From contig JAJEKV010000035.1 in the NCBI GenBank assembly GCA_021234155.1, positions 1,364,001-1,428,000 of the forward strand: a stretch of 64,000 bases of DNA, given 5' to 3'. Both the position numbers and the translations under genes were made by a program. Below, piece after piece: positions 1,491 to 52,645 of this stretch. Under the pieces are notes generated by a model that saw only the letters and a list, made by a program, of their open reading frames with translations, ran no database searches and was not told the DNA's origin. The DNA comes from Isoetes taiwanensis (Eukaryota; Streptophyta; Lycopodiopsida; Isoetales; Isoetaceae). Each line of letters starts with the position of its first letter. The first letter of the stretch is position 1.

Positions 1491-2705
1491 GGGATGGTTT
1501 CCCCTTAGTTGAGAAACAACTGCCAGAGGAGTTATGTGTTCAATTGGACAACTGTTGGAAAGAAAACAAGAATAGATGGATGTTTGGGGCAATGTCATAC
1601 TTGACAGCAGTGGGACTTGTGAAAGTGGAGTTCATGATGGTTGGGCATATGCATGATGATATAGATGCATTCTTCGGAACTTTCTCTACCAAGCTCAAGA
1701 GAGAAAACGTGACTAGTCTCCCTGAACTAATGGATGTGTTTGAGAGCTGCATTGACCCCAACCCAATGGCTTTCTTGATGGATGAGGTTGCAGATTGGAA
1801 ATCGTTTGTCGAGGGATACTTGCTAGATGGTAAGGATCAGTTGACATGACACACAAAGCCACTTCAGTTCAAGTTTTGGGTTAGGGATGGAATACCGATC
1901 ATGCAATATAAGTGGAGACCAGGTGATAAGTTGTGGATGCCTGTACAAGGAATCGAGTTGTGGCAACGGGGTGCAACAGGTGAAGTTCTTATTCCTAAAG
2001 GGCAGCCAAAACCACTACCTCCCTTCAAGACTGTTAAAGACTCTAGCCAACTAGTGAAGGGCATCAAGGATTATATAACGCACTGGGATGATGTTCGAAA
2101 TGGAAAACACACCTCCACTCTGAAGAAAAATCACATGGACTTCCTAATCAATTACTGGGAGAAAGTTATGACATGCTTAGAAACTGAACAACCATGTGGG
2201 GGGAGCTGAGAGACGGGTTCTTACCAGAGTCTAGATGGGAGGGTTCTCAAGGAGCAAGCACCTCTAAAAAAGTTCACTTGGGTTCTAACAATGGTTCCAA
2301 GTGGTTTGTGGGAGGCCTCAAAGCCGAAGTGGTTTGATCTTCCTGAGTGGGATCCCTTTGAGGACATCAAGGAAGGATGCCTGACGATGAGGATTCTCCA
2401 ATATGGTTAGGGGTGGCACTCTCATGGCTGATGGAGAGGAGTTGCGTCCTGGATTCCAAGTTCAATATTGGGAGCCCATTGGAAGACACAAGAAGGGCAA
2501 CTTGAAGGAGCAATACACCATCTGCTGGGAGAAGAAGTGGAGGGCAAATTATGTTGATCCTCAACGGAGGGAATTGGTGGAGTGTATGGTATGGTCATAT
2601 CCAACTTGTCACATTGCAAAGGACAAGACACACAAGATCCCAAAAAGGGAGATGGACAAAGCCATGAGCAACCTCCATGTTATATCATTGTATGAGGGTA
2701 GATAA
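1491..2705 (+). pseudogene. DUF7869-type transposon-associated protein, broken
   Basis: The first part (1491-1846) carries VQLDNCWKENKN and, about 40 residues on, GHMHDDIDAFF. These are the hallmark blocks I associate with the DUF7869 family, which is found in large mobile-element-linked proteins of algae and seed-free plants. A TGA at 1847-1849 interrupts the frame, but the same frame continues at once with HTKPLQFKFW and MQYKWRPGDKLW to 2209. Further readable coding (RPGFQVQYWEP, WRANYVDPQRRE) lies in a different frame at 2403-2705. So this is one gene with at least one nonsense change and one or two frameshifts. The N-terminal part is missing, replaced by the family A repeat. Its biochemical role is unknown; the acidic and His residues could form a DDE-like site, but that is speculation. 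Confidence 0.6.
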
Positions 2706-2985
2706 TATTGAGAAGCGTGAAAACTTTCTCAACTAGTGGTTTGTAAAATTTATGAGGAAAACAATAAACCAAGTTCTTTGTGTGTGATGTGTAATTCTAT
2801 TCAAGCATTCAATTCAGAATTTTTTTTTCTATAGTTTGAGTCCCATTTTCAGTCTGAGTACCAAAATTCGAGATTTGACCCACTTTAATTAATTGCGACT
2901 TTTATATGGTTTTATCTTCGCTTCGCATCTATTGGTTTTAATATCTTGTGTAATGTGTATATTGATGATCTAACAGATGGCAAAT
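2706..2985. other. AT-rich spacer
   Basis: This is T-rich sequence after the DUF7869 remnant. It includes a TCTAACAG just before the ATG at 2979 that could be a splice acceptor. I see no other structure. Confidence 0.4.
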
Positions 2986-5346
2986 AGAAGGAGTGCTCCT
3001 CCCACTTAGTTCTCTGAACTCAAGGTGATGGTTATACTGATGATATCCCTGCTCCTTCTAAGTTTACGCAGTTGCTTCTGTTATGGATCAAGTATTAAGA
3101 GTTCCATCAGTTCATAATTGACCACCATAGGAAGACTATTGCTGCTAGTGAAAGTGTTACCTTTCTAAACACAATCGATGTCAATGGATGGGCTAACTGC
3201 GTTATGTCTATGTCTCGTGCGCAGAAGCCTTTAGATATCATTAAGCAGCTTTCTGGGCAACTAAATGATATGATTGATAGTGATTTTGAGGAATCCAAGC
3301 AATGTTTGCATATTCTTAACCGTTTGGAAAAAGCCATTGCCTTTAATACTCCAAGTGCATCCTCAGTATCATCTGCTTCCAATTTTTGTTCATTAAAGGA
3401 GCTCGCCCCCTCAATGAAGAAGCTGTCCACATTATGAATAAAGAAGATGAGGACGATGAGGTTGAAGTACTCCCTTATGAGAAATTTCGGAAATTTTATC
3501 ATCCTATTGATCCTTCCAGGATTGTTGAGGAGCTGGCAAATGACCATGGCAACAAGATGTGGACAATGTGGTCTCTTAAGCTGCTTGCGCCATTTAGTGT
3601 TGACCTGTTAATGTATTTTAGCGGTGTCAAAGTTAACTTCAGTGATCCTGCACAAGATATTGTCAAAGTGGATTGTATGAATGATGCTTTATATGGGAAT
3701 CGTATCCTACAGGAGGTGACCCTTAACCACATTACCATGAATATGTTTGATGCAGCAGGTGTTCCAGTTCTGTTTATAAGCTATATTTAAGGGGCAAATT
3801 GAATACTGGTGAAAACAGGGGCGATGAGCACTATAAGTTAATGTTGAACTGGCGTCGTCCATACACGCGCAAGCTAATCAGGATGCTTGCAAATGCAGCA
3901 TTTTGTGGTTTGACCATGTTCTCTGGTTTATGGTGCATATCTTGATATTTGTTTTTCTAACTGTGACACCGTTGAAGGACAGTTTGCAGCTTTTATTAAG
4001 TGGATGTGCACTTCTAATACCCAACAAGCGGTTCGGGCACTCATGGTCTTCTATTTCCTTAGGGAAATGATGTTACATGGCGCAGCCCAGTTTACCATTA
4101 ATGCAGAAAATCCGAAGGGCATTCTGGATGTCTATGGTGATTATGAAGGCGCAAGAAACGTTGAAAGAATGATTATGCCTCCTTCTTTCATCACTCAAGC
4201 TCTGAAGGTTAGAAAGCTACTCCTCAAAAGCGTCAATTGAATTTAAATGCACCTATGCAGAGCAATGATAACACACAAGCATTGCAAAGATCCAATAAGC
4301 ACAATTATAGGGGACGTGGACGGGGCTACTCACGTGGTGGCTTCCATAATTCTCCTTTCATTCGAGGGCATGGTACTCCTCATCTTAATAATGGCATTGT
4401 TTTCCATCATGGAAGAACACCCGCCTTCAAATGGAGCATCAGCTTCTTCTACTTCTCCTTTTATGGCTGTGACTCCAAAAAGACTCTTCTCAAATCTGAA
4501 ACATTGATCCTTAACCACATTACCATGAATATGTTTGATACACGCAGGTGTTCCAGTTCTGTTAAGCTATATTTAAAGGGCAAACTGAATACTGGTGAAA
4601 ACAGGGGCGACGAGCACTATAAGTTAATGTGGAACTGGCGTCGTCCATACATTACGTGTTCCTGCACCATCTTGGATGCGCAAGCTAATCAGGATGCTTG
4701 CAAAGGCGGCATTTTGTGGTTTGACCATGTTCTCTGGTTTATGGTGCATCATCTTGATATTTGTTTTTCTAACTGTGACACCGTTGAAGGACAGTTTGCA
4801 GCTTTTATTAAGTGGATGTGCACTCCTAATACCCAACAAGCGGTTCGGGCATTCATGGTCTTCTATTTCCTTAGGGAAATGATGTTACATGGCGCAGCCC
4901 AGTTTGCCATTAATGCAGAAAATTCGAAGGGCATTATGGATGTCTATGGTGATTATGAAGGCGTAAGAAACATTGAAAGAATGATTATGCCTCCTTCGTT
5001 CACCACTCAAGCTCTGAAGGTTAGAAAAGCTACTCCTCAAAAGCGTCAATTGAATTTAAATGCACCTGCGCAGAGCAATGATAACACACAAGCATTGCAA
5101 AGATCCAATAAGCGCAATTATAGGGGACGTGGACAGGGCTACTCACGTGGTGGCTTCCATAATTCTCCTTTCATTCAAGGGCGTGGTACTCCTCATCTTA
5201 ATAATGGCATTGTTTTCCATGATGGAAGAACCTTGCCTTCTAGTACACAACTTGCAAGTGGACCATCAAGTGGAGCATCAGCTTCTTCTACTTCTCCTTT
5301 TATGGTTGTGACTCCAAAGAGACTCTTCTCAAATCTGAAACATTGA
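2979..5346 (+). pseudogene. Gag-like ORF1 of a retroelement, with RGG tail, internally duplicated
   Basis: Coding sequence can be followed in changing frames from an ATG at 2979 (MANRRSAPPT). It runs through FTQLLLLWIKY, WANCVMSMSRAQKPLDIIKQ and an acidic stretch (NKEDEDDEVEVLPYEKF, about 3437-3487) to a basic tail RGRGQGYSRGGFHNSP near 5126-5173. A large alpha-rich body followed by a terminal RG/RGG nucleic-acid-binding tail is typical of gag-like ORF1 proteins. The RT of the same element follows downstream on the same strand. Nearly the last third is present twice in tandem (see repeat at 3717-5345), and only the second copy is open over a long distance (369 codons, 4237-5346). I do not recognise the family, and the ORF1 role is inferred from position and the RGG tail. 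Confidence 0.45.
3717..5345 (+). repeat. Direct tandem duplication, about 0.8 kb unit
   Basis: The segment 3717-4507 (starting TTAACCACATTACCATGAAT) is repeated at 4509-5345 with roughly 95% identity. Small indels differ between copies: copy 1 lacks about 20-30 bp present in copy 2 around 4650-4675. The duplication lies inside the ORF1 coding sequence and carries the RGG tail in each copy, so it is a duplication within the element after insertion or a rearranged element. Confidence 0.85.
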
Positions 5347-5786: not shown

Positions 5787-7960
5787 GTGGTCTGCAGATG
5801 TGGTGTTTACATGGAGGAGATGCAAGAGGAATGTGATATACCTTGCCTCAAAACAATTGTATTCAAACATGGCCGAAAAGTGATGCAGAAAGCTGATAAG
5901 GAGAGATCATTTTATATTCATATCCTATATGTTAGTCGCGCTCTGGAACATATCAATTTACGTGGGCTATATCATGATGTCCTTTCACAGTGATGATTTC
6001 AATGATATTCTCTCTCAAGTCATCTTTGGTTGGCGTTATAAGGAGAATATGTCAAATTTGTGGTACTCACCTACGGATACTTTCTGTAAGTTCTCCTGTG
6101 CCAATATTTTAAGCTGTCATTGTACCTCTTTGAAATGTTTATGTCCATTCAACAGAGATTGTGGTCAATTTGGTGTCATGTCTTGACACTAAATTTAGAT
6201 ATTATCCACAATAAACTACTAAAGCAAGAAACTGAGAAAGGACTTAATCACATCCCCTTGTCTAAACCAGGTCTTCATGAGCTAATTTCTGCTATTACAG
6301 CCGGGTGGAATAATCTATGTGCTATTCTTTCCTCACAAGGGCTGACACTTGACTCTGAGCAGTTGGATCGCAGTCGTAGGTTGTTGGAATCTACCATTAG
6401 ATCCAAGCTGAAAAATAAGGTTACTAAAGCTTCTTGTTTGTTGGACTGCAGTAATGCTATGGATGAATTGTGCTGGCTTAAATCCCACTTATACATAGCA
6501 GGCATTGATAAATCAGCCATGATACCATCATTCATTTGTAAACAGTACTTAAGAAATTTGGCCCTTGAGAAACTATCTAGCGATGGTTTCCTTCCATGTT
6601 TGGACTCGAAAAGGAATTGGAAATCAGTAGGTGATTGTGCAACTGAGATTTTAAGTGATTTACTTACACTTTTTCCTACTGTGCACATAGTGAACCTCAA
6701 GTTGCCTTATTTAGTGGCTATTTTTTAAGGCCCACAAAAATACTATGAGGTGGCTTACTAATGCAGTAGGATGTGTGTTTTCGCAAGTTGCTTCTTTCAT
6801 TTCCAAGACTTTGCAGGCTACTGTTCCTTTATTAAGTGAAAAGTTCTACGCATTTGATCAGTCTATTCTCAGGTTCTTAAAAGTTAAAACCAAAAGCTTT
6901 TGAATGGTGGACTCCACTATGGAGGTTGCTCTGAACCTACCGGAGTTCATTCAAAATATATTTGTTGGTGATATTGCGCGATGCCACGAGCTTATTTCTC
7001 TCTTTGGGGTCGATAGCCTTTTTGAGGCTTTATCATGGAGCATCAAACATGCATTTAAACAGGCTAAGTACAGTAATTCCTGTTTGTATGTTAAGTTTGT
7101 TGATAATGGAGATTCTTGCTTTGAATGGAAAAAACGTGAACTACAATCTGATAAGTGGGTGACGGTATCTGCAGCTGACTTACTTGCATGGAATGAATGG
7201 TTATTATCCCATAGCATTGTCAGGCTTGGTGACAGGGTATGGCGACAAGTGAAAGGCATCCCCATGGGCTTCTTCTGTTCACGAATATGGTGCAACCTCT
7301 ATCTATCCTTTTATGAGTTCTAGTTTATTGCCAAGTTATCCCGGTTAGGAAGATCAGATCTACTTTCTTTATTCGCTCACACTAGCCGTTTATTGATGAT
7401 CTATGTTCGTTGAAAAATTCGTACATGTTCAAGTTTTTACGGCCTGGAACTAGAGTGGATCCCATGGATCCGTTTTCTATTTATCCTCTAAATCTTCTAC
7501 AGATTAAACCAGAAATGGAGGACGTGATACATTGGGATGATGAATCATACTGTACCAAAGCACACTTTTTAAGCTTAAGCATACAGATCAAGGACCAAGC
7601 TAGTGGAGTTTTTCTACTCTCCAAATTTGACAAGAAGATCTCTCCCTTTCAGATATGCACAATATATTTGGCTGGCATCCAACAGATCTATTAATGCAGC
7701 GTATAAGGTGGTTCTTTCTCAAGTTTCTCCTTTGTTGTACTATTGCAATGATATGGAGTCTTGCCTTAAAGAAATAGCGTGCATTATTGATGCTTTCTAA
7801 AGAAATGGGTTCAAGAAGGATAGGCTTTTGCGCATCATTGTGAACATGTTGCGGACTAATGAATTCCCTGAGGCCAAATGTGATTCTATTATGCTAAGGA
7901 AACATCTGATTTGTCATATACAAATAGGTATGGGTTCAACCTGGCATTCTTTATTATCTT
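5787..7960 (+). pseudogene. Penelope-like reverse transcriptase, degenerate
   Basis: RT motifs can be read in order across several frames. An N-terminal helical region (6120-6728) includes LDRSRRLLESTIRSKLKNK. Motif A is FVGDIARCHELISLFG (from 6961). Motif B is VKGIPMGFFCSRIWCNLYL (7249-7305). Catalytic motif C is FIDDLCSLKNS (7389-7421). KFDKKISPF and a thumb-like region follow to about 7960. The DI..CxE.I, GIPMG..C and FIDD spacing matches Penelope-like RTs better than LTR or L1-type RTs. Breaks visible include a TAG after YEF (7321-7323), a frameshift between there and FIDD, and TAA at 6726. I see no GIY-YIG endonuclease before 8340. Family placement is from motif recall and needs a tree. 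Confidence 0.55.
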
Positions 7961-8187: not shown

Positions 8188-8382
8188 TCTTTACTTACAA
8201 AATGCAACACCAAAAATATCTTTTCCAATAATTGGTCATTGGGATTATACAGATCTGTTAACCAAAATTTTGGCCTTAAGTATCGTCGAGTAGGCCTTGC
8301 TCAGCTGCTTACTGCCTATATGATCCATTGCCAGTAGCTTTGGATTTTTACATCGTTCAGTGGTGGTACACGATATGATACA

Positions 8383-9183
8383 ATGGCGTGCCTTCAACAC
8401 ATGATGGCAAATGTAAATCTTTTTGTTCGTATATTTCTCTCAGTGGCGGAGGTCATGCATGCAAATCCATCTATTGACATGTGCCTCCGAATTCCAAGTG
8501 CAAACATGCATGATTCACGTAGACGACAGTATAGTGCTCCATCTGCAAATGAGATAGCAATATTGATGCCAGTTGACACTGGCCCAGAAGACAATCTCAG
8601 AGACATTGTGGTACATTCTAAAGAAGGAGGAATCAGGCATATTGACGCACTGTATTCATCATACGATGCTCTGCACTTTGCACTCCTCTTTCCCTATGGA
8701 ACTGATGGATGGCATACAGGGATCCAACAAGTGAACAGTTCAAAGGGCATAACTATCTTGCAATTCTATAAGTATCATCTCCAGGTACGCAGTGGCATAT
8801 TATCACCATTGCATATTGCTGGGAAGACGTGTCATTGAGGCAGAGATAGTGACTGGCCCATGTTGGTGACCTGCTCCTATCACGCATTCCAATTGTGCCT
8901 ATCGATTCAGGTTTTCCATTTCAGTTTGAAAGGGTACAATTCCCTTTGCAGCGGGCCTTTGCCATGACGATAAACAAGTTCCAGTGCCAAAAAATGCATA
9001 AGGTGGGGATATATCTTCCAAAGCCTGTCTTTACACATGGACAATTATAGGTGGCATTCTCAAGCGTACAAAATCGACAAGGAATTCGGGTTGCTATCGA
9101 AGACCCACCGTCCATACCTCAAGAAGGTGCCAATACAGTTTCAAGGTTCACAAGGAACGTGGTTTACACGGATGCTTTGTGAT
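8383..9183 (+). pseudogene. Helitron Rep/helicase remnant with large internal deletion
   Basis: 8383-8780 encodes part of the Helitron-like N-terminal domain. RRRQYSAPSANEIAILMP, DIVVHSKEGG and FALLFPYGTDGWH correspond to the conserved stretch before the Rep nuclease motifs of plant Helitrons. Directly after it, in shifted frames, comes the C-terminal end of the Pif1-type helicase: GRRVIEAEIVTG (about 8820), RIPIVPIDSGFPFQ, FAMTINKFQCQKMHKVGIY and PKPVFTHGQL (8860-9170). The Rep HUH motifs and most helicase motifs are missing, a deletion of several kb. There is a frameshift near 8862 and a TAG after THGQL. The protein would have nicked, unwound and transferred the element by rolling-circle transposition; this copy cannot. 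No CTRR-type 3' hairpin terminus was identified. Confidence 0.8.
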
Positions 9184-10342: not shown

Positions 10343-10630
10343 GTGAGTTTGAGACTATTGTTGAAAGAAATTCAATATGGGGAATTTTTAGATTGTGGTT
10401 TAGAACATGCAATTATTTCTAGTATCAATCTTGAGAATGTAGATGATGATAAGACAATCGGTCATGATCTTAATATTGTGAACAATATCAAAAAGAATAT
10501 CAAGAAGAGGAAAAAAAAGAGATACAGAGCAAGAACGTCTGAAGAAACAAAGGCAGAGAAAAAGACAAAAAGAAGCTAATGAGGCATTGGTGAAGATTGG
10601 AGGTCAAGATGGATTGGATAAAAGTGATGC

Positions 10631-10890
10631 AAGAAGAAGAAGAAGAAGAAGAAGAAGAAGAAGAAGAAGAAGAAGAAGAAGAAGAAGAAGAAGAAGAAGA
10701 AGAAGAAGAAGAAGAAGAAGAAGAAGAAGAAGAAGAAGAAGAAGAAGAAGAAGAAGAAGAAGAAGAAGAAGAAGAAAGAAGAAGAAGAAGAAGAAGAAGA
10801 AGAAGAAGAAGAAGAAGAAGAAGAAGAAGAAGAAGAAGAAGAAGAAGAAGAAGAAGAAGAAGAAGAAGAAGAAGAAGAAGAAGAAGAAGA
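10631..10890 (+). repeat. (GAA)n microsatellite, about 86 units
   Basis: This is 260 bp of pure AAG/GAA with a single extra A near 10776 that shifts the phase. It sits inside the reading frame of the transposase gene, where it would encode poly-Arg, poly-Lys or poly-Glu depending on frame. Long GAA/TTC tracts form triplex (H-DNA) and silence neighbouring genes in other systems. Confidence 0.98.
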
Positions 10891-11599
10891 TTTTAACGTC
10901 ACGCCACAAGGCAGCATCCTATCGGACATGTGACACTTTACAACACACCCAGATGGGTCCTGCCCCCACCACTTTACATTGCTGAAGTGGGTCAATTCAT
11001 TCTTGAGGCAAATAAAAATAATGAATCTCTAGATTAAACGAGAAATATTGGTTGATGTACTAGAACATAAAGCTATGGAAGAGATTGTTGGGGACCTCTT
11101 GAAGAATCTAGAAGCAAAAACAACCATAATAGATAATATCAGTGATTCAATCCAAATCATGAAGCAATCGACTAGTCTAGATTGTATGGGTGCTAAAAAA
11201 TCTTGTTTAGCAATGGCAATAGGCAATGAACAGAAAATAAGCTACAGAAAAATGGGAAAATCTTTGATGTTCATCCAAGAAATTTGACTGCTGCAAAGAG
11301 AAATAAATTTGAGATAAATTGCAATTCAGGAAAATGGGTGTACTATAGAAGGGAAGAAGATGTGTCCATTTTCCATTCTGTCATTGCTCTTGTACAGGAT
11401 TTTTGGATTTCTAATACTAGGGTCTCTCCAAACACGGGGACTTGAAAGAAATTTCAGAGAAGAGCATGCTACACATTACTTAGAGCAAAGCCAAGCTAGT
11501 TACTACTCTACTATCTATCTACTCTTTCAAGCTTGATTTGATCACAGTTTTCTCTAGATCCTTTGTAACAGATTATAGATTGTGTGTTGTAAATAGTAT

Positions 11600-11960: not shown

Positions 11961-13059
11961 GTTTGGAATTTCATTATTATAGTTTGAGGTTCATGTTTGC
12001 AGTTTGGGGTCTAAGATTGATAATCAACTATTGTTTTGTTCTTAGATGCAACTCTATAAAGCTTTCAAAGCAAAACATCTAAATATCAAAGTTGGAGCTT
12101 CAGCTTTTCAAAATTTGAAGCTGTGGTTTGTAGTGAAGCTAGCAGAGTATAACACTTGTTATTGCATACATCATGTCAGGTTACAAATGTTATTGGATGG
12201 TTTAACTAAATTCAGGAAGAAACACTCAAAGTCATGTACTTGTGAGTGCAAGATTTTTACAGACATCAGTGATCTTTGGAAATGGATTGTTTGCCAGAAG
12301 GGTGAGATTGATGAATTCTATAGTAAGGATTGCCTTGACGGTACTTGTAGTGAGTGTGGGATAAAGAAGGTTGCAATCTGCCCCAAGGAATTAGAGAGTG
12401 CGGAGATTGTGAAATGGGAGCACATCGACTATGAACATGGAGATGTGGATAAATGTGAAGAGCCTAAGAAAGTTTTGAAACACCAATACAAAGAGACCAC
12501 ACCAGTAGTGCTAATAAGCAAACTCAAAGACAGGTTGGAAAAATTTCCCCTCCACAATTTTAAATACAAATGGCAAGATAAACAGTTTCGTGAAATGCTC
12601 AAAAATCTCCCTTCAGATGTCATAGTGTCAGTGGTAGATTTTGCAAAAAATTACACACTGAAAGAGAGAACACAGATGCAATCTCAGTATTGGACAAGCA
12701 TACAAGTGACCATTCTTGTTCACATTACTTATCATGTGGCTGAGAATGATGAAGTAGTAAAAGAAAAACATTATTACATATCAGATGACCGTAAACATGA
12801 CATCTTATTCATACTGACGTGCTTTATGTACTTCCAATTATATGGAAGAAGCGAGGAATTTGAGGCTCCGCGTAAGTATTTGAATTTTTTAGATGGTCTT
12901 TTGCATCCTGATTCAAGGCTGCCAAGGCCATTTTATTTTATTGCTATATACAACTACAACTACATCCTTGCACAACCATCATTCTGGGGAAAGGAACGCA
13001 TGTTTTGGCGTTACGCCATTTTCGGCATGAAATCCATCTATAAGCTGAGCTTTCTATAG

Positions 13060-13499
13060 CGCATGCTTTCTTTGGCTCTGTCTGCTATATATCCATGCCT
13101 CATCGACATTTTCTCTGAGCTAAATTCTGTTGGTTCTAGAGTTTCCCTCCCTCCCTCCTCTGAGTCTAGTCACCTGGCATCGGCTCGCCTTAACAACTGT
13201 TGGTCTCTTCTCATTTCACCTAGTGAGGGCTGGATCGACTGTTCTCTTTTATATGTTTGTGGTTGATGGCATCTGCAATTTTTCAGCGTAGCACTTGTCG
13301 CTTCTGGAGGGCACCTAGGGGCAGACCCCCGCGGTCGGGTCTAGACGATTTCTATCTTACTCTCTCTGGGCGTAGCTCTGTGGCTTCCGAGTATTCTCAT
13401 TTGTTGTGTCTTTATCTCTGGAATCTTTTTTTCGTCCTGCTCGCATGTTTTTTTTTTTTTCGGTTGGTATTCTGATGCTTGGCCCGTGAGGGCGTCTAA
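13060..13499. other. Unassigned insert between transposase and ParB-like exon
   Basis: Pyrimidine-rich sequence with CTCCCTCCCTCC and a 13-T run before the next exon. It contains no recognisable protein. It may be an intron, or a short insertion that replaced the transposase C-terminus. Confidence 0.35.
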
Positions 13500-13502
13500 C
13501 CC

Positions 13503-14057
13503 TTTGTCCCTAAAGATGAGTCTGGTGAGAGACCGTTGCAAGTGCGAAAAATTTACTCTGGTCATTTGTCTGCTCTTAAGGAACATATAAGGGATAGACC
13601 AAATGCAGCAACAGCACCGCACATTTGCATTCTTGACCCTTCCCAGTGCACGGACGGGGATTTTTTTGTAAAGGAAGAGGATGAAAGTTACAAGTATTTT
13701 GTTTTAGGGGGCACCCACAACTTTAAGGCGAGAAGGCAGCTTTATAAAGAAACTAAAGAACACTGCTTCTCGAAAATATTTGCATTTGTTTACGTGGGTG
13801 TCACTGACTCTGAAGCCAAGTTGCTTGCTATGAGCCATAATGTGGACAATGAATATCGGATGAGCATGAGCTTCACTGACAAAATCAAGTTTATGCATAA
13901 GGAATATGAACTTTTTAGGTCGGAGCATCAGGGTGATAAAGATATCAAAGATGATCAAAATCTTTACCTGGCTCTTAAAGAGCAGTGTGCTACAGAGTGT
14001 TGCTTAACTTATAACTCCACTGATGCCAATGCTTCTCTGACAACTAATTCCAACTAG
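13503..14057 (+). pseudogene. ParB-like (ParB/sulfiredoxin fold) domain exon
   Basis: The frame is open from upstream of 13503 (VPKDESGERPLQVRKIYSG). It has FFVKEEDESYKYFVLGGTHN, which ends in the G-G-THN-F-A-R motif (YFVLGGTHNFKARRQLY) typical of ParB-like nucleotide-binding domains. KIFAFVYVGVTDSEAKLLAM and SHNVDNEYRM follow, matching the second half of the fold. ParB-like domains bind or hydrolyse CTP or cleave DNA; in phage and plasmid proteins they are often fused to DNA methyltransferases. Here the next exons encode exactly such a methyltransferase. The first exon start is not defined, because an acceptor lies somewhere in 13470-13515. This exon itself shows no internal stop before 14055. 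Confidence 0.6.
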
Positions 14058-14164
14058 CTTTTAGGCGTGGACGTGTAAGATAACTTTCTTCTCCGAGTTT
14101 TTTGACCATGCGTGCATGGCTGTGAAGTTTTCTTACCTTTATTTCTTTCTTCTTCCTTTGTAGG

Positions 14165-14560
14165 TCTGGGAACTTCAAGAATTTTTTTTTTGATATGTTT
14201 GCTGAGGGTACTCTGAAATCCAAAGGCAAGGTGAAGGATTCAAAAAGAAAAAGAACTGAACCTGCAAAACGGAAGGACATGGGTATCATGGCGTTGAGGG
14301 AAATGCAAGGTTTAAAGAATACAGAAAAGGTTTGTGAGGTGCTGCAGAAGGTGGTCAATGGCCAATTTACCTTGGAAGAGATGCAGGGTGAATTCAAAAT
14401 GTAAGTTAAATTCCTGATCCAAAACACTAGCCATTTCTTGTTGGTAGTTTACGTTCTAGAGTTTTTTAAGACTTTCCTTACTTTTTCAGCCAAAAGGATT
14501 GTGCACTCTGTCAGCAACAACTCATGGTCCACCTTAACTGTGGCACTTGGAAAAAAGTAA
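14165..14560 (+). pseudogene. Linker exons between ParB-like and methyltransferase domains
   Basis: TTCCTTTGTAG (acceptor, ending 14164) starts a frame WELQEFFFDMFAEGTLKSKG followed by a basic segment (SKRKRTEPAKRKD) and TEKVCEVLQKVVNGQF, up to a GTAAGT donor at about 14401. The next acceptor CTTTTTCAG (14490) opens KDCALCQQQLMVHLNCGTW and KVKELYPMWPSEEKIN. That frame ends at a TAG which reads as a single change from CAG before YASNFTNWV. The CALC...HLNC pattern could be a small zinc-binding knuckle. Function is unknown; the basic segment may contact DNA. Confidence 0.45.
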
Positions 14561-14787
14561 AAGAATTATACCCTATGTGGCCCTCGGAAGAAAAGATAAA
14601 CTAGTATGCTTCAAATTTCACAAACTGGGTAAAATTTGTTCTTCCCCTACGTATCTTGCTATTGGACTTGTTGTGTTCCTATGCGCGCATAGCACCACAA
14701 GAAGTCTGTTACTGTGGTGCTATGCACGCCATAGGATGTCACTTAGAACTTTTGCTTTCTTGTTCTTACTAACGCTGTGTTCTGTGG

Positions 14788-15604
14788 TATTAGAAAAAGA
14801 AAGACCCCATGCCACCAGGGTTTCTTAACATGGTTAGACTGGCTAAGGAAGAGCGTGCCAAGTTAAAGAAGAAGGAAGAAGCTGAGCAAAGTTTTGTACC
14901 AACAGAATTTGAAAGGTTTGACATGTTTGGCCAGAATTGCTTATACCAGATATATCATGGAAATTGTGTCAGACTTGACCATACATTGAAACCTGGCAAT
15001 TATTTATTGTGCATTGCTGATATTCCTTATGGCTTCAAGCTACCTGATAGTCGAGTAAGATGATTCACCATTTACCTATGCTGAATTTGATTCTTTCTTG
15101 AGATGTTTCGTCAAAAATAACATTGCACCGCTTTGGAGGGTAATTGTTTTTCATTCAAGTAATCAGGCAGGTATGGTGCAAGCTGCAATGAGAGAGCACT
15201 GCAAAGCTGGTTACGAGCCTGCCATTTGGTAAATTATTTCTTTTTCCTATGCGCGCATAGCACACAATAACTCATTGGTTGCAGTTGCAGGTTGAAGACG
15301 AATGTAAGAGGAAATGGCGGTGGTGCAAGGCTTGTGAATGTTTGGGAACAGATGCACATTGGCTACCACAACATTGGTGGGCAGAGAAGCATTTTGCACT
15401 ATAATACTGCTGGAATGGATTTGCGTAATGCGTTATAATTCCCAGCAGTTATTCAAAAATTAACAGACCCAGTACACCAGGGTCATATAGTGAATCCTTA
15501 TCAGAAGCCTCAACAACTTATTAATACCCTTCTGGAGATGTTTTTACCGCCAGGGGACTGGGTCGTCGATGCCTTCTCAAGGTTAGAGACCACATTGGCT
15601 CTTT
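14788..15604 (+). pseudogene. Beta-class DNA amino-methyltransferase (N6-adenine or N4-cytosine), broken
   Basis: After an acceptor GGTATTAG (about 14792) the frame reads KKKDPMPPGFLNMVRLAKEE, a charged coiled stretch, then LYQIYHGNCVRLDHTLKPG and CIADIPYGFKLPDS. IADIPYGF aligns with catalytic motif IV (DPPY; second residue Ile here). A shifted frame continues FTYAEFDSFLRCF and WRVIVFHSSNQAGM to a GTAAAT...TTGCAG intron (15231-15290). It ends with VNPYQKPQQLINTLLEMFLP and GDWVVDAFSRLETTLA, the motif X/I block in which FSGxGT has become FSRLET. Motif IV before motif I is the beta-class order, as in CcrM. Breaks are the frameshift near 15057, TAA at 15437 and the lost SAM-binding glycines. A LINE fragment begins at 15605. 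Confidence 0.65.
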
Positions 15605-15962
15605 TTAGTTTCTCCAACTCATGCCTGTGGTCCTCCTGCTATGCTGGAGTCAGATCCCGGCCCACATATAGGGCAGTCCCCTTCAACTGCAGGATTGCTC
15701 GCTCTTGCACATCCCTGACTGTAAAGATGACTACCAGGAGACGGTCAGGACGCTGGGCCCCATGGCGTGTCGCCCTAACAATGTGTACAGGCACGTGGAA
15801 TGTCATCCGGGCCAGGATCTGTGTCTGGAGTCAGTTGATGAGGTACTCTCCTGCCTCCTCTGTCAAGGCTGCACCACCATGGCTCCTGTGTCTCCACTCC
15901 TGGAACTCTGAGGTGGTCGAGCTCGTAGTGGCTGCTATGGCATTCGCTGCTTGTGCACTTGG
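15605..15962 (-). repeat. LINE ORF1 fragment (RRM region), second copy of 26346-26730
   Basis: TTTCTCCAACTCATGCCTG through to about 15960 repeats 26356-26730 at roughly 85-90% identity in the same orientation. On the minus strand it reads TEEAGEYLIN, QILARMTFHVPVHIVRATRH and GAQRPDR, the RRM-like part of LINE ORF1. It directly abuts the methyltransferase C-terminus. Confidence 0.8.
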
Positions 15963-16823
15963 CAAAGGTGTGTGATTCGCAACTAGAAGGTTGTGAGTTC
16001 AAACCATGTCTTGTGCAACTACCTTTTTGCATCCGTGTGATGACCATATTTTGTACATACGAGTATAATGTTCGTATGATATGAATATCTGTATGGTCGT
16101 CACAGAAGCAATCAATAAATCCTTTATTACGATGAAGGTTGCGTAGCTCTTCTTGCATCGCTTCTCCTGATCTCACTATGCAAAACCCTCGCTAGTGTCT
16201 TTCGACCCACAAGAAGGTCTAACAAGACAAAAAACAAAGAAAATGGAGCCAGATACTCCTTCGATACATGACACAAGGAAGGAGAGCCTTTTCAAGATCG
16301 ATCTCTAGAACAATGTGACAAAGCAGTTGCAAACAGCTGAGAATGCAATCCACCGACCTATCAACATGCTGCTTTATTTATTTTGTGGCGTAACATAGCC
16401 CAATGTCAGAATACCCGCGTTTAGAACCAGCACTTGCAATAGAGTTCTCGCCTTCCATCTGCAAAAATGAAATTGATTGAAATTCCTTGTAGAAATTTTG
16501 TGAAATTCTCCATCTTTCTTCCGGGATTTTTGTTTGGTTAACGTTCTGGGAAGGGGGAAATTTTGGAAAGGGAGGGATAGATTCATTCAAACTGAGTTCG
16601 ATTCGATGCGTCAAGAATTCCGGCGGTGGGTTGTCTATCAGGGGATGTTCTTGCAATCATTGCGGACTTGCCACAAGAAGACAAATTGGAGTCTCGCATT
16701 GTACACCCAAAATGTAGCCCAAAAAAGCACGAATTCATCCTTCAATTTAGTACGATGTACGCACACCCTTTCATGCTATTACCCAGCTGATCAATATACA
16801 TGCCAAATATTGTGGAGAGAGAG
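15963..16823. other. Unassigned interval
   Basis: The start (15965-16005) has GGTTGTGAGTTCAAACC, a weak Pol III B-box-like string. A 92-codon minus frame (16378-16656) ends MEGENSIASAGSKRGYSDIG but has no recognisable family or clear splice sites. Nothing else stands out. Confidence 0.3.
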
Positions 16824-24242: not shown

Positions 24243-26023
24243 GGCGGACCCTAATACTGCTCTCGAATGGTTGGCCCGCTGGTTGCAGCCAGTCGGTGCA
24301 TGTCTCATATAACCTGTACACCGCAATCTGTAGTTCGGCAGGGACGTCTAGCTGCTGCAATCTTGCCACAGCTTTTCCCGAGGCACAGTGTCAAAAGCCT
24401 TGGCGAAGTCCATGAAGCAGCAATACAGATCTTGCCGATGGTTCCTATTGTCCTCAACCAGAGTCTGCAGCGTGAAGATACGGTCTATAGCTGAGTGCCT
24501 CGACCTAAATCCTGCCTGTATGAGTGCCCGCACTCTCGCTGCCTCTGCCCATCCTATCAACTGCCGCTCAAGAATCCCGGCGAGGAGCTTTGCAAACACT
24601 GAGCTGATCATGATGGTCCGGTAATTGGCCGGGCAATGTGGGTCTCCTGCCTTGTAGATTGGGACAACCCTGCTAGCGGTCCATTGTGGAGAAAAACCTT
24701 CCCACAATGCCTTTTTGAACATGTCGGTCAGTACCGGTGCCATGGATGGTCCTGCCCACTTGAGTAACTCTGCCTGCATGCCATCAAGTTCGGGTGCTTT
24801 TATGCCACCCGTGCACCCTCAGGGTTGTAGAGCTATTGTAGGTATTGCCCCCACTGGTCTGGAGTGATGTTTCCTGTGGGCAGCACTAACCTCCTGAGGA
24901 CTCTCTGCCAGAAGGTCATGGGATGACGTTCCAGGAGGAAGAACATTTCCTGTTGATGGGCCACAATGTACGTGGCCTTTCTAGCCTTAAGGAAAGTGCG
25001 GTATCGCTTGACTATATCGAAGCGTATATTATACTTGGTGGAGCCAGCATTTGCATTTTTTGCACTCGATGTTGAACCACTAATTACGCGAAAAGGCTGT
25101 AGCTCTCGAGGTTTGTCGGGGGCGACTTCTCCCAAAATGCCTCTTTGCAGTATCCCCGAGGGCATCAATGAGCCTGCCTGCATGCTGCTCCAGCGTTGAG
25201 GATTGTGAGATGTTGGCCAGATCCTCCGTAAGCATCTGGGAGTAAGTAGGAGCGCGCTCATAGTTCAGTCTGAGCTGGGGCATACGAGGTGTTTGATAGG
25301 CGTCTGGAGCAACCTGCCAAGCCAGTTGCAAGTAGAGCGGCAGGTAGTTTGAGTCCACCTCCTCATCCCTACCAGCTGTTCCCCCTCGAAAATGTTGGAG
25401 GAGATGCATGTCCTACTCGGCCACCAAAACATAGTCTACCACGCTAGACTCAGCTCCCTAGTTTTCCTGCCTGCAAGTGTGCTGGTTGGAGGACGGCCAC
25501 TGTGCTAGTCCATTGCAAATCACTAGGTCAAAGATGTTGCAGAGCAGCAACAGCTGCCTCCCATAGCGCGAGACTTGAATGCCAACTGATGCCTGTGGCT
25601 GAGCTCCTTCTGAAGCGCTCAGCTGCAACACATCATCTATGAGAGGGTCAAATCTCATCGGTTGTTCCGTGCCAGTGCAGGCATTGAAGCTTGTGCTGTT
25701 GTATGTCATCGTACAGATCAACATAGGGCTCCAACCTATCCACATCCGGATGGTTGTGATAGACGTTGCTCTCGGCATGTGGGAAGTAGCAGGCCACCAC
25801 AAGGCTACCACTGCTGCACGCGCACCCATAGGTACCTGTTATATTTATCTGTCTTGCACAGGAAAACTGACTGTGCCAGGGCTGTCTGGTAGTACCAGGA
25901 GACCCCTCCGTGCCCCCGCTTTCCTGTGCATTCATTGAAGACGGAGTAGTGATGATATCCTAACAAGTCAGGTAGTTTATGTCCAGCATGCTCCCATGTT
26001 TCCATGAGGAAGATGAGGTCCAT
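24243..26023 (-). pseudogene. LINE ORF2 N-terminal part: endonuclease and start of RT, truncated
   Basis: Read from 26023 leftward, an APE-type endonuclease begins with MDLIFLMETWEHAGHKLP and GYHHYSVFNE...GHGGVSWYY. Then come ACYFPHAESNVYHNH in a shifted frame and a linker with NYLPLYLQLAW. RT then starts at NYRTIMISSVFAKLL, AGFRSRHSAIDRIFTLQTLV and LYCCFMDFAKAFDTVPREKL, which is motif A (catalytic Asp in FMDFAKAFD). Coding stops at about 24245 just after SIRVRQGCV, inside motif B. Motif C (YADD) is absent here but is present in the separate piece at 28452-29691. Several frameshifts are present. These proteins nick DNA and reverse-transcribe the LINE RNA at the target; this copy cannot. Confidence 0.85.
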
Positions 26024-26399
26024 ATCGACGGCAACTGAGTTGAGACTGTCTCACTTCTGCCATGGAAAGCCCCGACAAATCCAAGAGACCATGTGCAGGT
26101 ACAATACAATCCCTATTTGCTGCAAGGGCTGTTGCTGTAGGTTTGGCGGTGGCAGCACAAGGGATGGTGGTGGAGGTGGAGGCGGTATGTGGCATGTTGG
26201 CAGTGGCAGGTAAGGCCATTGTAGCAGGATGTGCAGCTGGAGTCGCGGCAGAAGGGCCTCGAGAGAATGAGGTGCCTGCATCAGCATTTGGTGGCCTGAA
26301 GATCTGCATCCTCTCCCGGACTAGCCTGCTGCGCCTCCTTGTTTGCGGGCACTCTTGACTTTCTCCAACTCATGCCTGCTGTGTCGGAGTCAGATCCCG

Positions 26400-27803
26400 G
26401 TCCACATACAGGGCAGTCCCCTTCAACTGCCTACCTTGGCACAGGATGGCTGCTCGCTCTTGCGCGTCCCTGACTGTGAAGATGGCTATCCGGGGAGATG
26501 ACTACCCGAGGACGGTCAGGGTACTGGGCCCCATGGCGTATCACCCTAACAATGTGTACAGGTGTGTGGAATGTCATCCGGACCAGGATCTGTGTCTGGA
26601 GTCGGTTGATGAGGTGCTTTCCTGCCTCCTCTGTCAAACCGCGCACCACCACATTGTGGCTTCTGCATCTCCGCTCCCGGAAATCTGAGGTGGTCGGGCC
26701 CGCGGTGGCTATTGCGGCCTTCGCTGTTTGTGATGTGCAGGGTGTGGTTTGTGGCCTGTGGTGGGGTGGGGTGGTGGTGGCATGGGGCAGCTTGGTGATG
26801 CAGCGGTGGGCCGCCCTAGTTGGCATCTTGCAGGCTGTCGGGTATATGGATCTGTCATGTTCCATGATGTGGCCTCTTTTCTCTGTAGTCAGGAGCTCAG
26901 CTCCTACTGGAATTGTTGCTGCATTGCCAATTCATGTGTGCATTGCCACAATTGTTCATGGGCTTCCGCATGAAGGCCCTTGCCTTGCTGGACGACGGTT
27001 GCCCGAAGCTCCTGCAACTCCTGGTCTCGCGCCTCGGCCTTCCTCTGAAGCGCTCTCAACTCTAACTGACTCGCCTCAAAGGCAGTCTGCACGCATCGCA
27101 TGGTGGTGATGACCTCCGCAACTTCTGATTGGAGGCAAGAGTTGGTTTCTCTTGTCTCCTGATCAGCACGCTGCCTATCTTGTGCCATGGTCTCTATGAT
27201 GGTGGAGAGGGAGTCCACCATCATAGATCTTGCTTCTGCTATTGTCTTTTAAAGTGTGCCAAATGGATGTCGTCTTCCAGTTGTTGTGTATGGATCTCAA
27301 TCTTTGCAATCCACTGCCTCTTTGTTGCCAGTTATCTTCTGAGAACATGGGGCGTCGAGGACTGGTTCTCTTCTGCCAAGTTTGCAATTCGGGTCCTGTT
27401 GCATGCGATTCCTGCCTCCAGTTTTTCCAAGGCCGTCGTCTGTGCCTGGTCTGCCATTAGATCTGAACAATGATCAATCTCCTCTCGGGTCAAACTTGTT
27501 GATTGGGCCTTTGCCCATGCCTCTCACTCCTCATAGAAGTGGCCTCTCCCTTGTTCTTGCCGTCTGGTCGGAGCCGTTTGCATGGGGGACCATCCGCTTG
27601 ATTCTCCTGGGTGGGTTTGTCATGTCTGAGATCGGTAGCTTGGGGATATGCATGGGCAGCAGCTGGGGGCTGGGCCTGGACCTGGGCCTGGGTTTGGGCT
27701 GTGGCTTGAGGGGTGCCTCCATCCAGGTGGGGGTTTGGGTAGTGGGGTACATAAGTGGCCATTGTTGATTGGAGTCCACAAGGTCAAGATGCGAAGCACA
27801 CAA
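26400..27803 (-). pseudogene. LINE ORF1 (coiled coil plus RRM-like domain)
   Basis: From 27803 leftward there is a Pro/Gln-rich N-terminus (PPAAAHAYPQATDLRHDKP). A heptad-rich helix follows (27224-26904: ETNSCLQSEVAEVITTMR, LELRALQRKAEARDQELQEL). Then comes an RRM-like block (about 26700-26500: RRCRSHNVVVRGLTEEAGKH, FHTPVHIVRVIRHGAQYP). This order is that of L1-type ORF1 proteins, which trimerise through the coiled coil and bind the LINE RNA. The frames change between blocks, so it is broken. ORF2 follows immediately on the same strand. The RRM part is duplicated at 15605-15962. Confidence 0.75.
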
Positions 27804-31077: not shown

Positions 31078-33554
31078 TGTTGAAGGTATTCCTGGCAAAA
31101 CCTTCAACCTCAGTGGTTTAGAACCTCCAGGTTGCTTAAGGCAACCACTCTGAGTGCAAAAGTTCCAGAAAGAATCACAAAAGATCACTAGGAGTGTGTT
31201 TCCCTGAAGAGAAAAAAGTCTGCCTCACAAAATCTCTTGCAGAATGTGATCTATGGGGCTATGGGTGTGGATATCACTCCTTGATGTTCTCAACACTTGT
31301 CACTAACAGACTGCAAAAGCTCAATGAGGTCAGAGTAGGCTAGGTGGGCGAGATTCAAATCACTGACCCAGTCAATTTTTGGTCAATATCCCTGACAGAG
31401 AGCTGATATTTGGAACTCGATATTGGTGATGAATTTTTTGGGACTATCAACTCTATCTTTCTCAGATTTGTCTGCACACCAGGGGCCAACTATTCTTTCT
31501 GACCAGAAAGGATCCAATTTTTTCTTTTGATAATTCTTAGCCTAAGACTGTAAGAAGAAAATGTTCTTGAAAGATAATGTTTTGTAAGGGTCAACCCGCG
31601 ACGTGTATCTAATCTTTGTCTACTTCCACATACTTTGTTGACGGATTGAAGTTCAAACAGTGGCTCTCCCATGCTCCATACCATTTGTGCAATACCTCAT
31701 GTTCTAACAATGCCAACTTTCCATTGCAAATGGATTTGGCTCTTGCACTTTCTAAGGGTTTGTGATACGTGTAGACAAAAACAAAACTAACAATGTGCAC
31801 GGGCACTAGATACTCACGCTATGACAATAAAGCTATGATAATTTTTGCTTTTTTGAAAAGATCACAAAGCAACTCAAACAAACTGCTGCAAAGGTCGGAT
31901 TTTCAATTGAATCAGTCACTCAGAAGATACAATATAACATCCCAAGCTCGGGGTCTTGGGCACAGGATCAAATAGGTGCACATAAAAAATCCGGAGAATT
32001 AAGTCAATAATCCGGATCAAAGGTAAACATAGGAGGTGAGGATCAAGCTCAAGGTTGTCAAGCCGGTCCTTCTTCAAAGCCAAGAAATCTTCTTTGCCTT
32101 CAAGCCCTCAAAACTCTTTCTGCGAAAAATCCCCTTTTGTAGAATGTACTGTTCCGTTGAAATCTTCATTATTTCTTTCAATTCTTCTGTCTTTTAGCCC
32201 GCACTAAGCATTCATGGCATTAATCATAATGATTCGGCAGGTTTAGGTGCTGAATTAATGGTTTGTTAGGTCGCCTCGAAGCGGATCTTGGCATTTTCCA
32301 GGTTTTAGTTTTCGCGGTTCAAGAGAAATATCCCACGTGCCCAATTCAATTTAGCGTGACAAAGTATATAAGGCCCAAAAATTGATTTCTTCGATTATTG
32401 CGTGCAGTGTCCACGTGGGATTGGTACCTCCCCGCCCCCCACCGGATACTCCACGCCGGGGGATTGGCTTGGAAGAGAAATTAGGCTAGGGGGGTAGATA
32501 GGAAAAATTTTTGCACCCCTTACACCCTATGGCACGATTCCCTAGAACACATATACCATGCCTAAAATAAGGCCTTTTCTCAAAATTCTTTTTTTTGTAG
32601 GGGAATCTTTTTTTTGTGCCCTATAATATTTCGGGGTTTTTTTCACCATAGAGCTCTTTGGAGTTTGGAAAAAATTTGGGGAGTGGATGAAGTGGCATTT
32701 GAAAACATGGCATGGCTAGGTAGTATGACATGGCCAATGGGAATGATGACGTGTCAGCCCACTTGAATTTGAAAATTCTCTCTAGTCAAAATTTTAGAAT
32801 GATGTGGAGATGATGTGTGTGAATGAATGATGAGGTGTCAAAAGTGATGTGGCAACAATGATATTTTGAAATGAATTTTGATTTGAATGAGAGTTTGAGA
32901 TGAAAAGGATGAAATGGTGATGGGTGTGATGTGTGTAGTAAGGTGTAGGGGGACTTGGCACATCTAGTGCTCATTAGGAAGCCAAAAATTTTGTGCAGCA
33001 TCTTTGAAGCATCTTTGAGGCATATTTGAATTTTTAGCATTTCCCTTTAGGGATTTTGCAAGCCTCTCTACATTTTGCTCAAGTTGCATGGAATGTTGAC
33101 TTCATAAGCAAAGTTATGACTAAGTCAAGTCTCTCTTGAACTAGTGGATGATGAAGCAAGTGGGTGTTTTATGAAGGTGTATTTTGACTAGAAAGAACTT
33201 TCAAGGTCAAGTTTGACTTTGGGAGGTGTATGAGGAAGGAGTCAAGGTTCAATGCTATTTGGGATGGTGGAGTGGATGAGGATGGAAATAAAAAAATGCC
33301 AAAGATGCCAAGCTCATAAATGATTACATACCATGGAATGCTCTTCAAGGGGTCTTCTTTCTCTTCTTCTCTACACTTCCTATGCTTGTTTGACCTTTTG
33401 CATCTCTTGAGTGACTTGAGTCAGTTGTCCTTCCTTTGCTCTTCAAACTTGAGTGTATGCTAGTAAAGCATAATATCTTGCAAATTGAACCAAACTGATA
33501 GGATTAGTGCTAATATATGCTTGGCTCTTACATTCGCCATAGCATGGCAAAGCA
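31078..33554 (-). repeat. 3' LTR (left), about 2.48 kb
   Basis: Aligns with 39551-42033 throughout. Starts TGTTGAAGG and ends GGCAAAGCA in plus orientation (sense reading starts TGCT and ends CAACA). A TATATAAGG/CCTTATATAC string near 32365 could be the promoter TATA in the sense direction. Both LTRs end in an inverted GCCATAGCATGGC palindrome. Confidence 0.9.
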
Positions 33555-34260
33555 TTATGCCAAACAAAAAAGAGAAGGGCTGGTCTTCCAGCCCCTTTTG
33601 ACTAGTCGCTTGATGACTCTTGACATGTTCTCCACCCGGTTGCCAATATGAGAATATGGTTGGCAACTCAATGACCTGCATATGGATTGGAAGGTGATAG
33701 ATTTTATATTATGAACGTGCATATGATGCTACTTTTAGATGAACCTGCATGGAAAATAAATCTCTTTAGTTATGAGAAGCTGCAGGATGGTGGTATGACA
33801 GCAGCTTGGGAAATTTATTGGCAATGTAGGAGGAGTTTCTGATGCAATGAGGTCAACTCTTGATCAGATGACAGATGGAGATAAACATGGGAATGCACCT
33901 GCATGTGAAGATAAAGCTTGTTAGTATAAGTGAGTTCTTTGGTGTGGAGGCAATGTCGACAACTCGGATGATGGAGATCAATGTAGTGCAATGGAAGAGA
34001 TGTGTGACAGACATGCTCAGATGCACCTGCATGGAACTATGATCATTAGTATCAATTCACTCCTTCAGTTGATCACAATCTGCATAGCAACACTTATAAA
34101 TTCATTAACACACAAATAATAACCCTAAAGCAGAACTAAATTTACTAAGACAGCCTAATCGATCTAGTTTTAACCATATATATTAACTATACCTAGCTAC
34201 ATCTTACCACGTAGATTTCGGTTGAGCGAGCAAGGGCAACATGTTGTTGCCAATACCTTT
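33555..34260 (-). other. 3' untranslated internal region, with displaced polypurine tract candidate
   Basis: Sense-strand sequence between the integrase end and the 3' LTR. No purine tract abuts the LTR. The best candidate, CAAAAGGGG (sense; 33600-33592), lies about 40 bp away, next to the palindrome GGCTGGTCTTCCAGCC. Either the LTR boundary is longer in this copy or the tract is offset. The rest shows no coding. Confidence 0.4.
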
Positions 34261-34264
34261 TTAG

Positions 34265-35306
34265 GTGCACAATGTTGATAGGGTTCATCAATTCTCCGCC
34301 ATCAAAGAATATCCTTCACCTAATATGAATCCTTGCCATTTGTCCCTATTACTTCAAATGGTCCTTCCCAAAGATTTTCGAATTTTGTTGCCATATCTTC
34401 CCTTGCTTTGTTCCACTTTAACACTAACTCTCCTTCTTTCAAGACTCCCAGAATTTATGTCTTTGCTTTGAAGGCTGCAATATCCTTGGCCTTTTTCCTT
34501 ATTATTGCATTCTCGACCTCATATCTATGCTCCTCAAGCTGCATCAATCTCACAAATCTGTCTTTTAGAGCATTATCCATTTCCAAATTTATCGATAGGC
34601 GGTCGAGTGATGGAAGCTCTAATTCTATAGGCAATCGATTCTATCCCATACACCAAACTGAAAGGGGTGTGCTTTGTAGCCACTTTGATGGTAGTTCCAG
34701 TATGCCCAAAGTGCATCATGAAGTTTCAAATGCCAATCCTTTCTTGAAACACCGATGGTCTTCTTCAGATTGACTTGAGAGTCTTATTGGTTGACTCCGC
34801 CTCGCCATTTCCCGAGGGTAATAGGATGAACTCTTGGTGTGTTTGACTTTCAAGGTGGCTAGAAGTAATGCAATTGTATGGTTGATGAATTGGCTGCCTC
34901 TATCGTAAAACAATTTTGAAAGGGATACCAAACCGCACAGATATTTTCATGTAGAAACCTTGCAATTAGCTTGGGCATTGGCTTCTCTCAAAGGAATTGC
35001 CTCTGCCCATTTGGTAAAGTAATCAGTGGCAACTAATATAAACTGGTGCTGAGCTGAGGAAGGTGGGTCTATGGGGCCTATAAAATCCAGTCCCCACATT
35101 TGAAAAGGTCCAGGGGAAATTATGGCAGTCAGGGCAGCTGGTTGCAAGGTTCTTTTGCCAAAAATCTGGCATTTGTGGCAGCATTTTATAGCTTCATAAC
35201 AATCCTTAAAGAGAGTAGGCCAAAAGTATCCCGACCTTAAAAATCTTTTTCTTTGTTGTGTTCGCTGCAAAGTGTCCTCCACAAACTCCCTCATGACACG
35301 CCTCAA
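34265..35306 (-). pseudogene. Integrase region of the Ty3/Gypsy polyprotein
   Basis: The zinc-binding N-terminus spans the junction with the RT frame (CHEGVCGGHF... and CYEAIKCCHKCQIFG). The catalytic core shows GLDFIGPIDPP (first Asp, about 35085), DYFTKWAEAIPLREA, then after a frameshift DRGSQFINHT (second Asp, about 34895). PSGNGEAESTNKT in another frame (about 34810) carries the Glu. Farther on, FSLVYGIESIAY-like sequence (about 34660) starts the C-terminal part. It would insert the cDNA into the genome. At least two frameshifts separate the three acidic residues. Confidence 0.8.
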
Positions 35307-37000: not shown

Positions 37001-37149
37001 TAGACCCTTCTTATTGACCTTGACTTCCCTTACCTGCTTGTCTTCACTTGCATTGATTACCAGGATGGGGTATAGCTGTTGCAGATCTCTTCTCTCAAGT
37101 TCCTCCTCTTGAATTGCTCCCAAACCAAATGTTCCAATAGCACACTTCG

Positions 37150-39548: not shown

Positions 39549-39550
39549 AA

Positions 39551-52640: not shown

Positions 52641-52645
52641 CTCCA

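Follow-up and report, generated by a model that had tools for sequence, protein, structure and literature searches.

The DNA considered here, a stretch of 64,000 nucleotides of the Isoetes taiwanensis genome (contig JAJEKV010000035.1, positions 1,364,001 to 1,428,000; hereafter the window), carries a broken copy of an intron-bearing gene, in which a probable ParB-like domain is followed by a DNA amino-methyltransferase of a prokaryotic type. Similarity to relatives spans 13504 to 15600 on the + strand. Comparison with these relatives indicates that the fragment is derived from a high-copy DNA transposon with terminal inverted repeats (TIRs), which carries the ParB-methyltransferase gene as an accessory. 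Taking the origin of the fragment, the element and the selection on the protein together, we consider it quite likely, judging by sequence, that the accessory enzyme recognises its own element and modifies it, probably by adenine methylation.

The methyltransferase and the domain in front of it

The enzyme can be firmly placed among the beta-class amino-methyltransferases of prokaryotic type, because a profile of relatives from the four families described below matches CcrM at an E-value of 8e-14, followed by the adenine enzymes MboIIA (7e-9) and RsrI (8e-9); the N4C enzyme PvuII was ranked last of ten (0.006). The window copy, if read through its lesions, matches PF01555 (N6_N4_Mtase) at 4e-6 with 27.3 bits (curated cut-off 26.7) and the DNA methyltransferase family PHROG_67 at 4e-11; one of its methyltransferase exons taken singly falls slightly below the Pfam cut-off (25.3 bits), a spliced relative passes it with 63.6 bits, and CcrM is matched weakly (0.008) by the read-through window protein alone. 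An earlier note, made from the letters of the window and its open reading frames (ORFs), had named a beta-class enzyme with the motif order of CcrM, and the profile matches bear this out.

The consensus of the catalytic motif IV in the beta class is (D/N/S)PP(Y/F). Here the motif reads DIPY, within the variant ADIPYGF, and is stop-free in 33 of 35 aligned rows (three places occur twice, and shorter rows were left out); the phage protein P0009, annotated as adenine-specific, likewise reads DIPY. The S-adenosylmethionine (SAM) motif I, FxGxG, stands C-terminal to motif IV, reads AFSGSGTT in four relatives and is kept in most aligned rows; the pattern is not found in the window copy, whose motif I is altered. 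The earlier reading had placed motifs X and I at the C-terminus: motif X is present in the window, as is the beginning of motif I, and it is the glycine part of the latter that is altered.

No close relative was recovered in searches of IMG/VR, phage and plasmid sequences at the thresholds used. With tblastn at E up to 10, 43 phage records were obtained, the 30 listed being 19.5-26.6% identical and mostly annotated as DNA methylases, as well as 30 plasmid records, of which 12 rows are annotated as methyltransferase and the rest are unannotated or annotated otherwise. Identity to four CcrM-like plasmid proteins is about 25-28%. RNase HII adjoins the methyltransferase gene in three of the five plasmid genes opened; CcrM genes likewise stand beside RNase HII. 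The prokaryotic class of the enzyme could be explained by contamination or by a recent bacterial or phage insertion, which we hold to be extremely unlikely in view of the GT-AG introns at common positions, the number of matches (over 200, spread across many contigs) and the outcome of these very searches.

The N-terminal domain is probably ParB-like. The ParB family TIGR03764 is the sole NCBIfam match of the window exon at E up to 10 (0.006) and is matched by five of seven exon copies (best 4.5e-4), far under the cut-off of the family; one of the seven matches a radical-SAM family in NCBIfam (0.029). Inspection by eye shows the order strand-helix-strand-strand-helix-strand-helix and a GGxH motif, as in ParB/sulfiredoxin, and other transposons are reported to encode fusions of ParB with a methyltransferase (here and below, published work is drawn on in excerpt). 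Several results weigh against the assignment: Pfam gives no ParB (ParB_N) match for the seven exon copies; the unrelated Pfam family IgA0_D2 is matched by five of the seven with a best value (4.9e-4) equal to that of TIGR03764; a PDB search with the exon yields no ParB match; hhalign to phage ParB domains scores 15.5, a value that column-shuffled controls also reach (mean 12.9, maximum 21.4), in a test that was underpowered, the methyltransferase, its intended positive control, having failed too in related runs; and the single-sequence AlphaFold model of the exon has a pLDDT of 38 and was not used for a fold search. P0001 alone also brings no ParB from Pfam, PHROGs or PDB. The fusion claimed at the outset stands in unequal halves, the methyltransferase being matched above its cut-off and the probable ParB part only below that of TIGR03764. 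An unrelated domain, the methyltransferase alone being of a known kind, would fit the unsupportive PDB, profile-profile and structure-model results and the equally strong IgA0_D2 matches; we think it rather unlikely, as the recurrent TIGR03764 matches, the only ones of the window exon in NCBIfam, the fold order with its GGxH motif and the reported transposon fusions all speak for ParB.

In the ParB fold the GG motif is typically followed by an arginine; the compared copies have Ser, Asn or Thr at this position, which, along with the weakness of the ParB assignment in itself, argues against a nuclease. We regard it as improbable that the N-terminal domain lets the fused protein nick or cut DNA, with the methyltransferase half shielding the element in the manner of restriction-modification, even if the ParB domain of Bacillus cereus Bce_0392 is reported to have nonspecific nicking activity and ParB-like nucleases to occur in several conflict systems (PMC5512222).

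The element, its families and its palindromes

In the host assembly (1.66 Gb, 1,110 contigs) the methyltransferase piece has at least 216 matches, on many contigs (150 scored of 3,418 first-look candidates), and P0001 at least 151 (150 scored of 2,647 candidates); these counts are lower bounds, and candidates are not proven copies. The assembly also has four matches to the LEAFY-type family SAM_LFY, as against none in 14 control genomes, which identifies it as that of a plant; its LEAFY-like exons fit a land plant. The order ParB, linker, Cys exon, methyltransferase is found in 29 of the 30 best-scoring loci. That the gene is carried by repeats had been proposed before, in a reading from which the TIR element was absent, and the intact relatives then envisaged do exist: the matched part is stop-free in 58 of the 62 listed P0001 matches at 49-52% identity (hand count), and eight listed places combine a stop-free methyltransferase match with an open frame of at least 400 residues.

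The copies belong to four diverged families, A1 (which includes the window copy), A2, B and C. Across families the proportion of synonymous differences (pS) is 0.76-0.87 in the ParB-like exon (seven copies) and 0.74-0.93 in the methyltransferase exons (eight stop-free copies), against proportions of nonsynonymous differences (pN) of 0.07-0.36 and 0.07-0.32, respectively. Because the synonymous difference is near saturation while the nonsynonymous one stays at 0.07-0.36, the ParB-methyltransferase protein has been maintained by selection across the four families; the copies were picked as open frames, which favours a low pN between close copies and should not create the cross-family pattern. 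Of the four, family C (L180, L181 and the matches at 49-52%) seems to be the most intact, with open frames of up to 587 residues.

Two copies are complete elements, the one on contig C1018 measuring 8,782 bp and the one on C1038 about 8,950 bp, with TIRs of about 31-34 bp (AACAAGGTGACGGTGCAAACGCACTAATGAC, starting AACAAGGTGACGG) and 4-bp target-site duplications (TSDs; ATCA and TATA in the two); a third family-A copy, on C1078, is without its right end. The 4-bp flanks are identical in all ten further TIR pairs, which were chosen for exactly matching TIRs. Genome-wide, a search for the TIR pattern that allowed up to three mismatches gave 216 forward and 230 reverse sites (reversed control, 0 and 0). 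Family B terminates in a related TIR, and a putative end pattern of family C, taken from where two copies cease matching, has 54 and 35 occurrences with up to two mismatches (control, 0 and 0). A working gene of the host, in the form of a plant methyltransferase domesticated to make N6-methyladenine (6mA) or N4-methylcytosine (4mC), would also suit the introns and the long-lasting purifying selection; we judge this very improbable, the gene being repeated, its complete copies being bounded by TIRs and flanked by target duplications, and the window copy being truncated and frameshifted.

The transposon reading is extended by a second gene in the element, which matches DUF7869 (5.6e-41) and lies on the opposite strand, 3.6-4.9 kb from the ParB exon, in five of six long loci. 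Because it is placed between the TIRs, we infer that its product is the transposase; no mention of DUF7869 turned up in the literature searched. The 4-bp TSD, seen in the ten pairs and in both complete elements, agrees with the Sola superfamily, where Sola2 elements have TSDs of this length (PMC3627910). We do not assign the element to Sola; it is known here by its DUF7869 match and its 4-bp TSD. The window holds a second, distinct DUF7869 gene piece at 1394-1846 on the + strand (1.4e-30), whose similarity to the DUF7869 matches in the elements with the methyltransferase is 38-41%.

The elements contain arrays of a palindrome. Its core, ATGCG(N2)CAT, is present 23-24 times in each of the three family-A elements (24 in the two complete ones, the other lacking its right end) and 10 times in a family-B stretch, with none in 12.2 kb of flank and 0.05-0.2 in base-shuffled controls. 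Gaps shorter than 60 bp are exactly 41 bp in 11 of 12 cases in the 8,782-bp element (c18) and in 11 of 14 in c38, the remaining sites being spread wider. About half of the family-A palindromes stand in 41-bp arrays, which Tandem Repeats Finder also shows. A different palindrome, GTATTCCGGAATAC, occurs at 19 sites in the family-C copy L181, where nine of 11 close gaps are 39-43 bp. The 14-mer CTATGCGCGCATAG has 1,551 sites genome-wide (reversed control, 0), and the window fragment retains three palindrome sites. In L177 the stretch that separates the Cys exon from the first of the methyltransferase exons (6685-7029) also contains a tandemly repeated 113-bp unit, each unit having two palindromes.

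All five non-autonomous elements compared (2.5-3.0 kb), in which neither gene was found, carry five to eight family-A palindromes each. They share with c18 only about 220-340 bp per end, and 28 of their 32 palindromes lie outside the shared parts; the sites of L213 and L214 are nearly co-located, which may make these two close relatives, so that not all of the five can count as independent. Such a pattern should be expected of a site that acts in cis and is recognised by a protein of the element, be it the ParB-methyltransferase or the DUF7869 protein. Transposase sites are subterminal in CACTA/Spm elements. Were the arrays binding sites of a DUF7869 transposase, the ParB-methyltransferase acting elsewhere, for example on host DNA, their retention in the non-autonomous elements, which keep TIRs, would reflect a need in cis for transposition; most sites of c18, however, are far from its ends (2321-4783 and 6417-7749 of 8782), some of them within introns of the methyltransferase gene, and we give this explanation a minor, though appreciable, share of credence.

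We favour an enzyme directed at its own element. The ParB-methyltransferase transcript would be spliced, and the protein would enter the nucleus by means of its basic linker; its ParB-like (or target-recognition) part would recognise the element that encodes it, probably at the palindromes, and the methyltransferase half would methylate adenines in the element DNA there. The purpose is a guess: the mark may help transposition, protect the element or counter host silencing. A more specific form is tentative and on the doubtful side: the ParB-like adenine methyltransferase would coevolve with a family-specific palindrome (about 24 per family-A element, partly phased in arrays near four helical turns); within the nucleus it would bind its own elements and the non-autonomous ones, and no others, and mark them with 6mA, much as if a transposon had adopted a partition or modification system of bacteria. 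Some observations count against the proposal as a whole. The family-C copy L180 has only three palindromes, compared with 19 in L181, as does the shorter stretch L215, and no DUF7869 was found in the 9 kb read of L180; the transposase is named from position only; and it is from sequence that we infer palindrome binding by the ParB-methyltransferase, methylation and transcription.

The copy in the window and its surroundings

The similarity to relatives given above nearly equals the 13503-15604 claimed for the gene, and the motifs and GT-AG introns of that claim are present in the + strand: YFVLGGTHNFKARRQLY sits in the ORF at 13500-14054, IADIPYGF at about 15013-15036, and QKPQQLINTLLEMF with GDWVVDAF in an ORF from 15439 onward (all on the + strand; Table 1). 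The adaptation of a prokaryote-type enzyme to introns is likewise upheld, those introns that were compared being at the same places in relatives; the position of the last is common to the compared families although its sequence differs. The locus as a working gene must be given up. The ParB exon frame terminates early, at a stop at 14055, and because the frame is broken, with in-frame stops, a frameshift, an altered motif I and cut ends, the window copy is a non-functional pseudogene fragment truncated at both ends, which is a further point to be set against a role for this particular copy.

Table 1 The ParB-methyltransferase fragment and its junctions (positions in the window)
Feature	Position	Strand	Remarks
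Left flank, part of a repeat of another family (X)	13125..13508	+	86-88% to L207-L209; ends at left junction
Exon with probable ParB-like domain	13504..14074	+	open frame 13500-14054; open relatives continue to splice site 14075
Intron, GT-AG, one palindrome at 14108	14075..14163	+	same place in L177
Linker exon, basic-rich KSKGKVKDSKRKRTEPAKRK, possible nuclear signal (by eye)	14164..14400	+	
Intron, GT-AG	14401..14489	+	same place in L177
Cys-containing exon with CALCQQQLMVHLNC stretch	14490..14628	+	in-frame stop 14602; 3' limit by eye
Presumed intron, GT-AG, palindrome at 14681	14629..14793	+	limits by eye
Methyltransferase exon, motif IV variant ADIPYGF	14794..15228	+	frameshift near 15050-15060
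Intron, GT-AG, palindrome at 15249	15229..15290	+	position common to A1, A2, B and C (one or two copies per family)
Methyltransferase exon, motif X and start of motif I	15291..15600	+	stop 15436; motif I altered; C-terminus cut off
Right junction, piece of another repeat	15601..15955	.	also at window 26348-26732; 76.5% over 396 columns
Transposon palindrome, core ATGCGTGCAT	14108..14117		
Transposon palindromes, core ATGCGCGCAT	14681..14690 and 15249..15258		

Neither end of the transposon is present in the window fragment. Junction searches, with 40 candidates scored for each side (of 491 left and 333 right), found 14 other strong places that match the left junction on its flank side only, plus three short weak matches, and six other places that match the right junction on its right side only; both sides of either junction are covered by the window itself only. 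One copy of the left flank continues 18 bases beyond the left junction. As comparison with L208, one of three copies examined, shows the repeat of the left flank taking up again at 16012-16104, the methyltransferase fragment and the right-hand piece may lie nested within that repeat. The right-hand repeat is termed LINE-like only since a reverse-transcriptase ORF (24351-24818) lies near its second copy. Upstream of the fragment, an ORF of 337 amino acids (12046-13056, + strand) contains VVDFAKNYTLK; it has no Pfam or NCBIfam match, and none in the six long loci.

Elsewhere in the window, a Ty3-type LTR retrotransposon lies on the minus strand at 31778-42000 (gag 2.7e-10, reverse transcriptase 2.9e-20, RNase H), its direct repeats being 97-99% alike and about 8,473 bp apart. 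A large direct duplication at 45105-63947 has a spacing of about 10.75-10.84 kb and blocks that are 91-100% identical, and a long purine trinucleotide tract at 10572-10944 encodes, depending on the frame, extended stretches of Glu, Arg or Lys. The ORFs at 6904-7320 and 8338-9047 (+ strand), which we take to resemble pieces of reverse transcriptase and Helitron helicase, have no Pfam match. Scans of the window with Rfam (at the gathering threshold) and for tRNAs gave no matches.

Comparison with known systems

Proteins of a comparable kind are already known from algal transposons (PMC12477816). Sola1-1_Ec32 of the brown alga Ectocarpus has an accessory protein with ParB-like and N4C/N6A methyltransferase domains (PMC12477816), and, as in that element, the two-domain protein (its ParB part here being probable) is encoded opposite to a transposase (here presumed) within a DNA transposon. 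The element of I. taiwanensis differs in its plant host, its DUF7869 gene, its size (8.8-8.95 kb as against 21.5 kb), its high copy number and its four selected families, as well as in its palindrome arrays, of which the excerpted description of Sola1-1_Ec32 makes no mention. Among the papers listed by the literature searches, older source papers excepted, none was seen to describe a land-plant gene of this kind, or palindrome arrays together with one.

The enzyme shares with CcrM (PDB code: 6pbd) the permuted motif order, and their alignment covers almost the whole catalytic domain; unlike CcrM, it has a DIPY motif IV, introns and, in front of the catalytic part, a basic linker preceded by a domain that is probably ParB-like. 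A ParB domain ahead of the methyltransferase, as is probable for the plant protein, is found in the phage proteins P0010 and P0011, which have a PF01555 match and a near-cut-off ParB_N match, and in Bce_0392 (PMC5512222). The methyltransferases of these three are less similar to the plant enzyme than are the CcrM-like proteins or the stand-alone enzyme of phage FP_Mushu, and the phage ParB parts show no significant alignment to the plant N-terminal exon in the underpowered hhalign comparison. The N4CMT of bdelloid rotifers is likewise an intron-bearing PF01555 methyltransferase of prokaryotic type in a eukaryote; it is, however, encoded by a gene that the host has domesticated, carries a chromodomain and makes 4mC, whereas the plant gene is transposon-borne, has a probable ParB-like domain and encodes a predicted enzyme (PMC8885841).

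Enzyme-made 6mA in land plants is contested (PMC12695648). A multi-copy and long-selected methyltransferase of bacterial type, resembling adenine enzymes most closely and with many open copies, is a candidate source of 6mA, and the element family supplies a list of loci and a candidate recognition word for a 6mA search. If the enzyme acts as proposed, it would back the idea of transposons that bear their own epigenetic writer, as has been put forward for the algal transposons.

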